From NCBI RefSeq assembly GCF_030068505.1, contig NZ_JAQOSO010000004.1:1-64000 (forward strand): a DNA stretch of 64,000 nucleotides. Direction: 5' to 3'. Source of the stretch: Roseofilum capinflatum BLCC-M114. GTDB lineage: Bacteria; Cyanobacteriota; Cyanobacteriia; Cyanobacteriales; Desertifilaceae. Shown here piece by piece: positions 15,930 through 21,201 of this stretch. Position 1 is the first letter of the stretch; each line of letters opens with the position of its first letter. The notes below the pieces were generated by a model, which was given only the letters and a program-made list of their open reading frames with translations, was not told where the DNA came from and ran no database searches. The translations under genes were made by a program, and so were the position numbers.

Positions 15930-16529
15930 ATGACCGATGCTGCATCCCCTCCAGAAGTTTCCAGTTCAACTTCAAGCTCAACCTTGACCCAGAGCAACGC
16001 AAGCTCTTCTGACTTAACTTCTCAATTAGGACAATGGCTGGAAAATAGCAGTGAAATTGCGACCATTTTACCCGTAGTCGCTGGATTATTAGTGACCAGT
16101 CGCTTGCAATTACGAGGAGCGCAAGCCCTAGTCGTTAATCTGACGATCGCCGCCCTCGTGCGTCAAGCCCTCCAACAAGTGAAGAAACAGGCCCAACCGA
16201 CTTCAGGAAGCGAGCAACAAGCCTCAAGTGCCAGCGAAGAACAAGCCAATAACGAGGAAGAAGACTATAAAATTGTCCATTCTGTCCCTGGGCGCATTCG
16301 GTTACGCATCCCTCGTTTAATGAACGACTCGCTCTATGGCAAACGCCTGGAAAAACTCCTGTCTGCCGAGTCCAAAGTCAAGCATGTGCGGATTAACCGA
16401 GCTGCCGCGTCCCTGATTATTCAATACGATGGAGACGGCATGTCAGAACTTGAATTAGGCATGTATTTACTCAACATTCTCGATCAAGCCAACTCTGCAC
16501 CAGTTGAAAATCCCAGCGAGGAAAATTAG
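15930..16529 (+). CDS. HMA2-domain protein with N-terminal hydrophobic segment (candidate FezC-like)
   Basis: The 199-residue product begins with a Ser/Thr-rich leader. A hydrophobic region follows (ILPVVAGLLVTSRLQLRGAQ, then ALVVNLTIAALVRQ), then a low-complexity Ser/Glu linker. From about residue 113 there is an HMA2-type domain with VHSVPGRIRLRIPRL. This domain lacks the metal-binding CxxC of true HMA domains and closely matches the start of the ATPase encoded next. The gene is divergent from feoA and co-directional with the ATPase. A role in an iron compartment or in guiding the ATPase is inferred. Confidence 0.75.
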   Translation: MTDAASPPEVSSSTSSSTLTQSNASSSDLTSQLGQWLENSSEIATILPVVAGLLVTSRLQLRGAQALVVNLTIAALVRQALQQVKKQAQPTSGSEQQASSASEEQANNEEEDYKIVHSVPGRIRLRIPRLMNDSLYGKRLEKLLSAESKVKHVRINRAAASLIIQYDGDGMSELELGMYLLNILDQANSAPVENPSEEN

Positions 16530-16722
16530 GGAATGGGGAATGGGGAATGGGGAATGGGGAATAGGGAATGGGGAATAGGGAATAGGGAATAGGGAATAGG
16601 TAAGAGGCCATTTTCCCATCCTCCCCATCTCCCCATCTCCCCCATCCTCCCCATCTCCCCCATCCTCCCCATCTCCCGACTCCCGACTCCCCAATCCCCC
16701 AATCTCCCCACCCCCCACTCCC
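16529..16722. repeat. Heptamer array and C/T-rich array before the ATPase gene
   Basis: GGGAATG/GGGAATA heptamers are followed by about 100 bases of CCCATCTCC-type repeats that run up to the ATG of the ATPase gene. No clear ribosome site is visible. The array fills the whole 196-base gap between the HMA2 gene and the ATPase gene. Confidence 0.85.
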
Positions 16723-16724
16723 CC

Positions 16725-18863
16725 ATGTTAAAGATCGTTCATTCTATTCCTGGAAGAATTCGCTTGCGAGTTCCGCAACTGAAAGACAATGCTGCTTATG
16801 GGACTCAACTCGAAGCAACCCTGGTGACTTGGCCAGGGGTGAGGCATGTTCGGATTAATCAATTATCCGCCTCGGTGGTGGTGGGTTATGCTCCGGAAGT
16901 GGTCGGAGAAGGGGCGGCGGAGCGAATCGCACAAATGGTCGAGGATCAGATCGACAAAATTACTCAGACTATTGCCCCAGAACCGCCTGCTGCTCTGGCT
17001 AGTGAAAAGCATTCAGAAGGGTGGTCAAGCTTGCGCCTTCCCCTGGTGGCGGCTATTCTCGCTCTGCTTAGTCGTAGCCTTCCCCGATGGGTTGGCTTGC
17101 GTCCGGTGGCGAAGATCGCCTTTCTCCTCGCTGCTTTCCCGGTCGCAAAACGGGCCTGGCATAGTGTGGTAGAGGAGCAGCGCTTAAATATTGACTGTCT
17201 GGATTTTCTCGCCCTCACCTTAAATGGGTTACAAGGAAAACAGGTGACTCCGGTGATGGTGATCTTGCTCCATGAGTTGGGGGATATCATCCGCGAACAA
17301 ACGGCTAGAGCAACGGAAGTGCGGACGGCTGACTTACAAGAGGCGATCGGGCGGTTTGCTTGGGTGAAAGTGGGAGACGATCAACCCCCAGAGCAAATTC
17401 CGAGCGATCGCGTGGAAGTGGGGCAAACGGTTATTGTTTATCCTGGGGAACAAATTCCCGTGGATGGTACGGTATTGCGCGGAGAAGGAGTCATCGACCA
17501 ACAGCAGCTCACCGGGGAAGCGCTACCGGTGGTTAGACAGGAAGGAGGATCGGTCTTAGCGTCTACTTTGCTGCGATCGGGTCAATTGTATCTGCGGGCC
17601 GATCGCGTGGGCAACCAAACCCGCGCCGCTCTGAGTCTGGCCTTACTACAAAAGGCTCCTGTCCATGACACCCGCATGGCCAACTATGCCGAAAAAATTG
17701 CCGATCGCCTGATTTTACCCTCCCTCTTTCTCGCCTCCCTCATCTGGCTGACCACAGGCGATCCCTCTAGGGCCGCCGCTATCTTAACCCTAGACTTTGT
17801 AACCGGCATTCGCGTCTCCATTCCCACCGCCTTTTTAGGAGCCTTAAATCATACCACTCGCCATGGCATTCTGGTTCGTAGCGGTCGCACTTTAGAACAA
17901 TTGGCGGAAGTTGATACCGTTGTATTTGATAAAACGGGAACGCTGACCCAAGGAATTGTCACGGTAGCCAGCATTACCCCGTTTAATGGCTCATCTGAAG
18001 ACCGAGTGCTACAACTAGCTGCTGCGGCCGAACAACGGTTGAATCATCCCGTGGCTGAAGCCATTGTTGACTATGCTCATCAGAGGGGGGTAACGATTCC
18101 TGCCAGGGGCGAATGGTTCTATGAACTGGGGTTAGGGGTTCGCGCTCAGATTGAAGGTCAGGAAGTGTTGGTGGGTAGTCAGCGCTTTTTACACCAAGCA
18201 GGAGTTGAGTGGGAAAGTTCAGAAGAGTGGCAGATCGAAGAGGATGCTCCCTCTCAGATTTATGTGGCTTGTAACCAGGAGTTTCAAGGGGCGATCGGCT
18301 ATCGCGATCCCTTGCGTCCAGAGAGCGATCGCCTGATTCAGACTCTACAGCACCATTATGGTATCGATATTCATTTGTTAACGGGCGATCGCCCCCAACG
18401 AGCCGCCCAAGTTGCCCAAGAACTCCGTATTCCCACCTCCCAAGTGTATGCGGAAGCTTTCCCCGATGATAAAGCTCGGATCTTGCGAGATTTACACCGT
18501 TCGGGGCGGACAGTCGCCTTTGTGGGCGATGGCTTAAATGATTCCGTTGCCCTGGCCTATGCGGATGTGGCGGTCTCCTTTGAACAAGGGTCAGAGATTG
18601 CCAGGGAAACGGCGGATGTGGTTTTGATGAATAATAATTTACTCGATTTACTCGAAGCCATTTCCATTGCTCGCCAAACCCGCAATCTGATCGATCAGAA
18701 TATCGCCTTGGTGGTTGCGCCCAATTTAGCGGCGTTGGGGTTAGCCTCAACGGTAGGGTTGAATCCTCTGGTGGCAACGGCTATTCATAATGGATCGGCG
18801 ATCGCTGCCGGAGTCAATAGTCTGCGTCCCCTAGTCGAGCATCAGATGACCCTGGAGGGTTGA
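16725..18863 (+). CDS. P1B-type ATPase with N-terminal HMA2 domain and no CPC motif (P1B-6/FezB-like)
   Basis: The 712-residue protein has an N-terminal HMA2 domain (IVHSIPGRIRLRVPQL), then the P-type ATPase core: TGE at 263-265, phosphorylated Asp402 in DKTGTLT, His-Pro at 441-442 (the P1B hallmark) and GDGLND at 601-606. The membrane segment before DKTGT, where P1B pumps have CPC, SPC or similar, reads DFVTGIRVSIPTA (357-369), so the usual metal cysteines are absent. DF...KLSxP-type segments are, as I recall, typical of P1B-6 ATPases, including FezB of ferrosomes. With feoAB next door, iron is the likely cargo. The ATPase call is firm, the subclass inferred. Confidence 0.87.
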   Translation: MLKIVHSIPGRIRLRVPQLKDNAAYGTQLEATLVTWPGVRHVRINQLSASVVVGYAPEVVGEGAAERIAQMVEDQIDKITQTIAPEPPAALASEKHSEGWSSLRLPLVAAILALLSRSLPRWVGLRPVAKIAFLLAAFPVAKRAWHSVVEEQRLNIDCLDFLALTLNGLQGKQVTPVMVILLHELGDIIREQTARATEVRTADLQEAIGRFAWVKVGDDQPPEQIPSDRVEVGQTVIVYPGEQIPVDGTVLRGEGVIDQQQLTGEALPVVRQEGGSVLASTLLRSGQLYLRADRVGNQTRAALSLALLQKAPVHDTRMANYAEKIADRLILPSLFLASLIWLTTGDPSRAAAILTLDFVTGIRVSIPTAFLGALNHTTRHGILVRSGRTLEQLAEVDTVVFDKTGTLTQGIVTVASITPFNGSSEDRVLQLAAAAEQRLNHPVAEAIVDYAHQRGVTIPARGEWFYELGLGVRAQIEGQEVLVGSQRFLHQAGVEWESSEEWQIEEDAPSQIYVACNQEFQGAIGYRDPLRPESDRLIQTLQHHYGIDIHLLTGDRPQRAAQVAQELRIPTSQVYAEAFPDDKARILRDLHRSGRTVAFVGDGLNDSVALAYADVAVSFEQGSEIARETADVVLMNNNLLDLLEAISIARQTRNLIDQNIALVVAPNLAALGLASTVGLNPLVATAIHNGSAIAAGVNSLRPLVEHQMTLEG

Positions 18864-19603: not shown

Positions 19604-19846
19604 ATGTCTCTGATTCATCTGGACAAGTCCGTCGTGACCTTTCATCTCAAGGAAATTCTCGAAGACGGAAACGGTAACCATCCCCTATTCTGGGTTGGAT
19701 TAGGCGTTTTAGTTTTAGCCCCTACCCTGTTGCCCGATCCTCAACCGGTGAATCAACGGTTGACTCAACAGGGAAAAACGGGAAAAACAGAAATTTCTTT
19801 ATCTGAGTGGGTAGCTCAGGCACAAAAAAAGGGAGTTGAGAGCTGA
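19604..19846 (+). CDS. Small single-pass membrane protein, DUF5132-like
   Basis: The 80-residue product has one hydrophobic segment (PLFWVGLGVLVLAPTLLP) with a charged tail (SLSEWVAQAQKKGVES). The pattern HP...VG..VL.P.LLP resembles the membrane part of the DUF5132 protein encoded at 20059-20349. It lies downstream of the HMA2/ATPase arm on the same strand, past a repeat block. I infer it belongs to the same locus. The open frame is plausible but short. Confidence 0.55.
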   Translation: MSLIHLDKSVVTFHLKEILEDGNGNHPLFWVGLGVLVLAPTLLPDPQPVNQRLTQQGKTGKTEISLSEWVAQAQKKGVES

Positions 19847-20058: not shown

Positions 20059-20349
20059 TTAGGAATTGGGGAGGGATTTTTGGGGAGTTTCGGCTTGAAC
20101 CTCTGCTTTAGCTTCAGCCGCAATATCCGCTATGCTTTCAGCCGTTTCTGCAAGGGCAGATTTGGTTTTTTCATACCAAGTCACTCCGGTTTTAATAGAG
20201 GTTTTCAAAACGGGTTTGACCAACGGCAAAATGATAGGGGTGAGGGCCACTGTAGCGACTCCGACGGCGATCGCCGTAGTATTTGGATGACGGCTGAGTT
20301 CGGCAACTCGCGCTCTTAATCCAATGCCTTCGTGATGCATCATTACCAT
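20059..20349 (-). CDS. DUF5132-type small membrane protein
   Basis: I choose ATG 20349 (MVMMHHEGIGLR) because an AGGA ribosome site lies just upstream; the longer frame to 20400 has no support. The 96-residue product has a hydrophobic segment (AIAVGVATVALTPIILPLV) after HPNT, then an amphipathic tail rich in Ala and Glu (ALAETAESIADIAAEAKAEV). This is the DUF5132 pattern, often found beside HMA2 proteins in cyanobacteria. It could line a membrane or compartment; its function is unknown. It is the last gene of the iron locus and is oppositely oriented. Confidence 0.75.
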   Translation of the reverse strand: MVMMHHEGIGLRARVAELSRHPNTTAIAVGVATVALTPIILPLVKPVLKTSIKTGVTWYEKTKSALAETAESIADIAAEAKAEVQAETPQKSLPNS

Positions 20350-20575
20350 GATTGAGATCCTGCTTGCTAAGTTGAAACAAAATGTAGCTGGTATTCTCAT
20401 CTATTATAGGCTAATTGAGAAAGAAAAGCCAGACATTAATGATGAACAGATTATTAAATGATTAAGTGAGAGTTAATCCTAATTACTCATGTCTCAGAGG
20501 ATGGGGAAACGGAGACACCAGGATACGGGGGCACGGAGATGGAAATCATATCACAAATGTTTTCTAACTAAGCAA

Positions 20576-20932
20576 TCAAATATATCGAACCTGATTTTCC
20601 ATTTCATCTGCTGTAACGTGATTCAAAATTGCCAGCAATCGTTGTGCAATTTCTTGAGGGGGACGACGGACAGCTAATATCACACCACAGTGTCTTTGTT
20701 CTGTATCAAAATACATCTGAATAAGCTCTTCAAAATCCCCACGGTTATGTGTGACTAAGGCTCTTTTCTGGCTGACTGCGTAGGCAAGTTGCTCTTTGTC
20801 GCTTGCTTGAAGTTGTCCCGCATCTCTTACCGTTAAAGCATCAAACCCTCTCGCTTTCAGCAAGTCTGAGACCAGTATATTAACATCCTCGTCTAAATAT
20901 AGACGGATGAATACACTGCTCATAGATCGCAC
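20576..20932 (-). CDS. DUF5615 PIN-like protein (probable toxin)
   Basis: The 118-residue protein has the DUF5615 pattern: IRLYLDEDVNILVSDLLKARGFDALTV at the start, then LVTHNRGDFEEL in the middle. The acidic residues LDEDV and the later D fit a PIN-like nuclease fold. Its start overlaps the end of the DUF433 gene by 13 bases. DUF433-DUF5615 pairs are regarded as type II toxin-antitoxin-like modules. A Met at residue 5 gives an alternative start. Confidence 0.85.
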   Translation of the reverse strand: MRSMSSVFIRLYLDEDVNILVSDLLKARGFDALTVRDAGQLQASDKEQLAYAVSQKRALVTHNRGDFEELIQMYFDTEQRHCGVILAVRRPPQEIAQRLLAILNHVTADEMENQVRYI

Positions 20933-21201
20933 ACTAACGGGTCAATCAAGTCATCAGGAATTCGATTGCGCTCAATGTAGGTGTTGATCTCATCCTGATG
21001 ATCGCTGTAATAACTCAAGGCATCGAATATCTGCGCCAGCGTAAGATGGGGCAATCCTTTGGGAATCTCTTCAGGAGCAATGCCCATGCGCCAAGTCTCA
21101 ACGATCGCCCTAACCGGTGTGCGCGTTCCTTTAATGATGGGTTCACCCCTTAAAATCTGTTCATCTCTAACAATGTAAAGATGCTCCGTGACTTGAACCA
21201 T
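20920..21201 (-). CDS. DUF433 protein (probable antitoxin)
   Basis: The 93-residue protein shows the DUF433 pattern: a GEPIIKGTRTPVRAIVETWRMG core and EEIPKGLPHLTLAQIFDALSYY, a small helix-turn-helix domain. It precedes and overlaps the DUF5615 gene, the usual antitoxin-first order. The perfect inverted repeat 27 bases upstream of its start could be its autoregulatory operator. Confidence 0.87.
   Translation of the reverse strand: MVQVTEHLYIVRDEQILRGEPIIKGTRTPVRAIVETWRMGIAPEEIPKGLPHLTLAQIFDALSYYSDHQDEINTYIERNRIPDDLIDPLVCDL

Follow-up and report, generated by a model that had tools for sequence, protein, structure and literature searches.

Metal selectivity in P1B-type ATPases is usually inferred from Cys-containing motifs in transmembrane segment M4. 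The P1B-6 ATPases carry an SCA-type M4 motif, and FezB of ferrosomes is a member of this class. P1B-6 pumps are entered as Fe(II) pumps in a table of PMC7558416, and PMC9374683 describes an HN motif in TM6 of these pumps and DUF6110 proteins that are typically encoded together with them. The same text presents CtpC and PacL1 (a DUF1490 protein) as a mycobacterial zinc efflux platform, in which the gene of a pump with HN in TM6 adjoins that of a protein with one TM and a region rich in Glu/Ala; DUF1490 is reported in Actinobacteria only. Another described group, the P1B-4 Fe(II) exporters, includes PfeT, FrvA, CtpD, and PmtA (PMC7762939). DR1440 of Deinococcus, a proposed iron exporter, was considered as a characterised member of the pump group described below and ruled out, being an SPC pump according to PMC6091924. 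Among the matches listed in the open-licence literature (titles and abstract openings), we found no study of this cyanobacterial group (designated xTG), and no biochemical datum for the branch was found in that literature.

The window analysed here, a stretch of 64,000 nucleotides from Roseofilum capinflatum BLCC-M114 (contig NZ_JAQOSO010000004.1), contains one such pump (Table 1). Its open reading frame starts with ATG and has no internal stop in the ORF list of the window, and Pfam assigns it the domains HMA_2 (residues 2–60, E 2.2e-10), E1-E2_ATPase, and Hydrolase. Among the NCBIfam models, TIGR01525 matched with 502 bits (cut-off 346) and the generic TIGR01512 “cadmium family” model with 326.5 bits (cut-off 313.5); the copper subfamily model stayed at 315.7 bits, under its cut-off of 397, and the ZntA equivalog was also under its cut-off. 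All P-type catalytic motifs are intact (TGE at 263–265, DKTGTLT at 402, TGD at 553–555, GDGLND at 601), and the HP motif of P1B-type ATPases is present at 441. An AF2 model built with a 65-row alignment (mean pLDDT 91.0, pTM 0.82) was closest, among PDB chains, to the Cu(I) pump CopA (7r0g, P1B-1; Z 33.2, rmsd 3.8 over 604 residues, 29% identity), with which it has the overall fold in common, the CopA motif being CPC; the predicted structure thus keeps the P1B fold. In this model, the M4 helix is interrupted at 356–358, at D357-F358, and strands and helices at the N-terminus follow one another as in a small ferredoxin-like domain.

Table 1. Coordinates of the pump, its sequence features and its neighbours in the window, and of six related pumps in their own loci.
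Feature	Position	Strand	Basis
P1B-type ATPase, xTG type, 712 aa	16725..18863	+	Pfam, TIGR01525, AF2 model, CopA match
N-terminal HMA_2 domain, GRIRLR, without CxxC	16728..16904	+	Pfam, AF2 model
D160 in M1 (D in 41/41 xTG; D in 16 and E in 2 of 18 SCA; no D/E in 24 CPx)	17202..17204	+	alignment
M4 putative metal-site segment DFVTGIRVSIPTA, residues 357–369	17793..17831	+	alignment, AF2 model
DKTGTLT phosphorylation motif (402–408)	17928..17948	+	motif reading
N667 in M5 (N in 40/41 xTG, 18/18 SCA, 15/24 CPx)	18723..18725	+	alignment
HNGS in M6 (688–691), “HN” motif of P1B-6	18786..18797	+	alignment; PMC9374683
FeoB, 778 aa	12565..14901	-	Pfam
FeoA, 220 aa	15061..15723	-	Pfam
199-aa protein, N-terminal hydrophobic region and C-terminal HMA_2, directly upstream of pump	15930..16529	+	Pfam
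80-aa conserved protein, no Pfam family, MSLIHL..FHxxEILEDG, recurs next to pump	19604..19846	+	
DUF5132 protein, 113 aa, hydrophobic stretch then A/E-rich tail	20059..20400	-	Pfam
Paralogue with altered P domain, L167	5554-7725		
Paralogue with altered P domain, L168	11420-13669		
Paralogue with altered P domain, L169	5817-8084		
Paralogue with altered P domain, L171	7866-10142		
Paralogue with altered P domain, L181	7966-10254		
Paralogue with altered P domain, L182	7880-10198		

The original prediction had read DFVTGIRVSIPTA ahead of DKTGTLT, and this segment lies exactly at residues 357–369. It had also placed Phe-Val-Thr where other pumps have CPC and Val-Thr-Gly where P1B-6 pumps have SCA; both placements are borne out by the alignment, in which F358-V359-T360 fall in the CPC-type columns of 24 CPx pumps (C22/S2, P24, C21/H2/G1) and V359-T360-G361 in the SCA-type columns of 18 SCA pumps (S15/A2/T1, C18, A16/P2). 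M4 therefore lacks the CPC, CPH, or SPC motif of P1B-1/2/4 as well as the SCA motif of P1B-6, whose Cys is present in 18/18 SCA rows. A displaced CPC, SPC, or SCA motif, one of the findings that could have overturned the prediction, occurs nowhere in the pump, as follows from the M4 sequence and from the fact that its only cysteines are C158 (kept in 15/41 xTG rows) and C516. The N-terminal HMA_2 domain likewise has GRIRLR in place of a CxxC site, as predicted, with no Cys in residues 1–150.

Site columns were compared among 41 xTG rows (selected by their motif), 18 SCA rows, and 24 CPx rows. Residue 357 is D in all 41 xTG and all 18 SCA rows and A (16), S (4), G (2), F (1), or T (1) in CPx rows; residue 360 is T in 40 xTG rows and S in one, C in all SCA rows, and C (21), H (2), or G (1) in CPx rows; residue 361 is G in 41 xTG rows, A (16) or P (2) in SCA rows, and A (23) or G (1) in CPx rows. 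At 363, all xTG rows have R and all SCA rows K, and none of the 24 CPx rows has a basic residue. In M6, residue 688 is H in 17, N in 22, and S and L in one xTG row each, H in 18/18 SCA rows and in 10/24 CPx rows, and residue 689 is N in 38/41 xTG, 18/18 SCA, and 7/24 CPx rows; HNG was found in all 20 close-group loci (defined below). M4 to M6 are free of Cys in 36/41 xTG rows, as compared to 0/18 SCA and 0/24 CPx rows, and 19/41 xTG rows have no Cys across the examined M1–M6 columns. Asp, Thr, Asn, and His occupy the conserved polar positions, in agreement with the earlier suggestion of a non-thiol metal path, and the alignment is most simply read as a site built from oxygen and nitrogen donors. 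One relative (L053) has D-L-C-T-G in M4, with a Cys one position ahead of the Thr.

Relatives of the pump were found in 13 of 39 related genomes (E ≤ 1e-100) and in 52 of 291 genomes of the class (E ≤ 1e-120); no relative on a viral contig was confirmed. The fetched loci presented three main M4 types. CPx pumps have CPC, CPH, SPC, and similar motifs. SCA pumps have D-[FY]-[STA]-C-[AP]-[ILV]-K and were found in Vibrio, Azospirillum, Cereibacter, Hahella, Rhodobacter, Rhodomicrobium, Sulfurospirillum, Methanobrevibacter, gut Firmicutes, and others. The xTG pumps have D-[FLV]-x-[T/S]-G-[IVL]-R and were found in cyanobacteria, one Melainabacterium (L066), Deinococcus (L029), Methylobacterium (L030), and Acidocella (L067). 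Some loci came from a contig scan with two general P-type pump patterns, which yielded mainly other pumps since both patterns are common to P-type pumps; these loci serve the tree and not the distribution.

The motif columns were left out of all trees. A quick tree of 88 rows, restricted to GDGxND proteins, placed the window pump in a branch of 43 rows (support 98), namely 41 xTG rows and two Thioploca rows with FGYNM, and no xTG row fell outside it; with six paralogues added, the branch comprised 49 rows (support 99). A careful tree of 52 rows gave the same groups (xTG branch 100/98, SCA branch 100/97). Cys is absent at residue 360 from all 49 branch rows, so that its absence is, in these sequences, a trait of the whole branch and not of the window gene alone; the motif [T/S]-G-[IVL]-R is not universal within it (41/49 rows), and its retention by branch-mates in many other cyanobacteria, the paralogue set excepted, argues that it is not a product of chance. 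While the three-group tree is unrooted and does not allow sister relations to be read, the addition of four outgroup rows (KdpB and P2 types) joined xTG and SCA at 94/99. A sister relation of the xTG branch to the SCA/P1B-6 group is thus favoured, and only favoured, because the AU test keeps the orders SCA+CPx (p 0.427) and xTG+CPx (p 0.366) in the outgroup-rooted tree.

The six cyanobacterial paralogues within the branch have GEGxND (five) or GDSISD (one, L167) in their P domain and DFSHG, DFGYG, DFGAG, DFGSG, or DLGSG in M4 (i.e., SHG, YGM, AGI, or SGI/SGL at the motif). Four of them (L167, L168, L169, and L182) have a GTG-type pump no more than a few kb away, and such pump pairs with one altered partner may merit study. 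The two Thioploca pumps (L071, 5854-7863; L072, 7902-9467) have AFGYNMR or SFGYNMR in M4, with no Asp, Cys, or Thr at the motif. Relatives with GTG or ATG occur in many cyanobacteria (L056–L063, L165–L182), mostly with NNG in M6 and no nearby feoB, and some of them with DUF5132 or HMA_2 genes. Outside the branch, pumps of a Priestia plasmid (L033, 5986-8103) and of Fusobacterium (L034, 5974-8181), both flanked by GRxR (HMA_2-like) proteins, have ICG/SCG in M4 and group with CtpC-like CPC pumps; SCA-like motifs therefore do not form one clade and, to judge from this grouping, may have arisen twice.

Compared with P1B-6 pumps, the window pump shares the M4 Asp, a basic residue at 363, the M1 Asp (Glu in 2/18 SCA rows), and, with the rest of its close group, HN in M6; Y/F at 466 (16/18 SCA rows) and R627 (17/18) are also alike. 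An HMA_2 domain scored above the Pfam cut-off in one of six scanned SCA pumps, under it in two, and was absent from three. The xTG pumps differ in having Thr (Ser once) for Cys, Gly for Ala, and Arg for Lys, and in forming a separate branch, and the window has a DUF5132 gene, not a DUF6110 gene. Because the SCA motif and a DUF6110 partner are missing, the window pump was not filed as P1B-6; the most fitting description is that of a variant, non-thiol branch close to P1B-6. CtpC differs from it in retaining CPC in M4, and a Rhodococcus relative gave a weak N-terminal HMA_2 match (25.1 bits, below the cut-off of 30). The P1B-4 Fe(II) exporters have SPC, with its Cys, whereas the window pump has neither Pro nor Cys there.

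The genes surrounding the pump were compared among its relatives in two counts. For the first, 291 cyanobacterial genomes were surveyed, 95 of which have a FeoB_C match; the R. capinflatum genome has a single one, in the window FeoB. With relatives binned by identity after inspection of the list (at least 55%, close, window included; 48–50%, intermediate; lower, distant), feoB was found within 10 kb of the pump in 14/20 close, 1/6 intermediate, and 0/54 distant cases, and anywhere in the genome in 19/20, 4/6, and 36/54, the distant bin also containing paralogues without xTG. The 14 close pumps near feoB span 11 genera, and the sole intermediate pump near feoB stands in tandem with a close-group pump. 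Gene order and orientation vary among the 14 loci while nearness is retained, and because their FeoB scores against the window FeoB range from >1000 down to ~110, more than one FeoB type is found near these pumps. In two loci (L150 and L159), the FeoB near the pump is split into two ORFs (210–220 aa and 484–487 aa), giving the impression of one gene for the GTPase part and another for the membrane part.

The second count covered 45 xTG pumps in the fetched loci (picked from the matches, non-random, window excluded), with the close group set at a score of at least 740 (n = 20), a cut slightly unlike that at 55% identity. As lower bounds, given short contigs, the 20 close-group loci contained FeoA or FeoB in 15 cases, an HMA_2 protein in 18, the 80-aa protein in 14, and a DUF5132 protein in 16, as compared to 1, 7, 1, and 9, respectively, among the 25 other xTG loci, where the sole 80-aa case is a broken close-group copy (L178). 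The FeoA, FeoB, HMA_2, 80-aa, and DUF5132 proteins thus recur as one neighbourhood of the close group.

Other parts of the window locus were also inspected. A Fur box in the spacer between feoA and the HMA_2 gene was dropped as a candidate; the best 19-mer matched 12/19 positions in the window spacer and 13 in G001, and 123 of 400 random draws of 297 bases from the window reached 12–13 as well. Short repeats, GGAATGGGGAAT... followed by CCCCATCTCC..., make up the stretch that separates the HMA_2 gene from the pump (16530-16724), and a DUF5615 and DUF433 pair identified by Pfam (20576-21201, minus strand) resembles a toxin-antitoxin pair. DUF4405, the FezC-like cytochrome of the ferrosome (fez) cluster, was absent among the 13 window proteins scanned with Pfam, and a search of the HMA_2 membrane proteins against the PDB gave a single chance-level match (E 0.4).

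Neighbours within 8 kb were also recorded for a comparison set of 27 SCA, 53 CPx, and 7 xTG pumps. FeoA or FeoB was found near 7/27 SCA pumps (FeoB 5, one of them weak at 83 bits; FeoA 4), a DUF6110 relative near 14/27, and a Fur relative near 4/27; each of these four was found near 0/53 CPx and 0/7 xTG pumps (one of the latter, L064, being of the VTG type). Two SCA loci, in which the FeoA, FeoB, Fur, and DUF6110 proteins were confirmed by Pfam, have the orders FeoA, FeoB, small protein, DUF6110, pump (L076) and FeoB, further genes, Fur, DUF6110, pump (L095). A likeness in build between DUF5132 and DUF6110 is a lead and not homology, no kinship being detected by hhalign (22 DUF5132 against 10 DUF6110 proteins, probability 2.7%). 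Weak DUF5132 signals, both below the curated cut-off, were seen next to SCA pumps of Azospirillum (E 0.0026) and Cereibacter (E 0.031).

Based on these comparisons, we consider it moderately likely that this P1B-type ATPase, which stands near the SCA/P1B-6 group, removes Fe(II) from the cytosol through a non-thiol membrane site. The iron assignment, with which the original prediction agrees in holding that a non-thiol path fits iron, is supported because the feoAB neighbourhood recurs and because the pump resembles P1B-6, a class tabulated for Fe(II) in PMC7558416. The substrate, ligands, direction, membrane, and small-protein roles that we propose would combine as follows. Fe(II) would enter the cytosol through the neighbouring FeoAB, and the HMA_2 domains may offer cytosolic Fe(II) to the pump or control that offer; D357 and T360 would hold the ion where M4 kinks, possibly assisted by N667 (M5) and H688, N689, and S691 (M6), with D160 of M1 and R363 tuning the charge at the site, and phosphorylation of D402 would then drive the ion off on the opposite side of the membrane. 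For the HMA_2, 80-aa, and DUF5132 proteins, a role in scaffolding or feeding the pump is probable, by analogy with PacL1 and CtpC, and the pump, perhaps clustered by these small partners, would remove Fe(II) from the cytosol at the expense of ATP. Two outcomes would be compatible with this scheme, efflux under overload or the filling of a store inside the cell; a pump that is repeatedly coupled to an uptake system would suit the safe handling of newly imported iron.

Several observations count against this explanation, and Mn(II) or another divalent metal may be moved in place of Fe(II). In six of the 20 close relatives, the pump has no feoB closer than 10 kb (on another contig in four, far away on the same contig in one, absent in one), and the 7 xTG pumps of the comparison set have neither FeoA nor FeoB nearby; the M6 His is Asn in 22/41 xTG rows (in none of the 20 close-group loci), same-branch paralogues differ at residue 360, no Fur box rises above background, and other orders of the three pump groups stay within the AU test. 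Hard-donor sites prefer harder ions, and photosystem II requires cyanobacteria to handle Mn in quantity; a pump whose conserved site positions are Asp, Thr, Asn, and His and lack thiols would be no less suited to Mn(II) than to Fe(II). Export of Mn(II), or of a mixture of Mn, Fe, and Co, nevertheless seems unlikely to us, since the genes that recur beside these pumps across 11 genera, with more than one type of FeoB, are those of ferrous-iron uptake.

These same iron genes speak against an ordinary Zn/Cd/Co efflux pump whose motif has drifted harmlessly, which is what automatic annotation would make of this gene and what the TIGR01512 score, a further point against our preferred explanation, would suggest. 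Such drift is hard to reconcile with the retention of the motif in 41/49 branch rows, with M4 to M6 lacking Cys in most xTG rows, and with the copper and ZntA models staying under their cut-offs, and we regard this explanation as quite improbable. The loss of the usual thiol ligands, together with the altered P-domain motifs of some branch paralogues, could also be taken as a sign of a regulatory or sensor-like relative that has lost metal transport; the window pump itself, however, has intact TGE, DKTGT, TGD, GDGxND, and HP motifs, a P1B fold in the predicted structure, and conserved polar positions in M4 to M6, which makes that explanation very improbable indeed.

Fe(II) export through a non-thiol site, the reading we prefer, may be extended, although only as a doubtful proposal, to a separate P1B subgroup with a wholly oxygen/nitrogen site, coupled to Feo and to HMA_2/DUF5132 proteins, that would load Fe(II) into a ferrosome-like membrane compartment of cyanobacteria. 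PMC7762939 puts the share of cyanobacterial genomes with an FtnA homologue at no more than around 12%, and the P-type iron exporters in its list come from other bacteria; intracellular iron mineralisation by a siderophilic cyanobacterium is reported in PMC9670899. A branch that has no Cys at this M4 position and stands partly beside ferrous-iron genes offers a direct test of which residues make a P1B pump choose Fe(II), and a concrete cyanobacterial gene set can now be named for iron export or storage. If the proposed compartment is real, it would represent a ferrosome-like iron store in a phylum with patchy ferritins and, in some strains, reported intracellular iron mineralisation.
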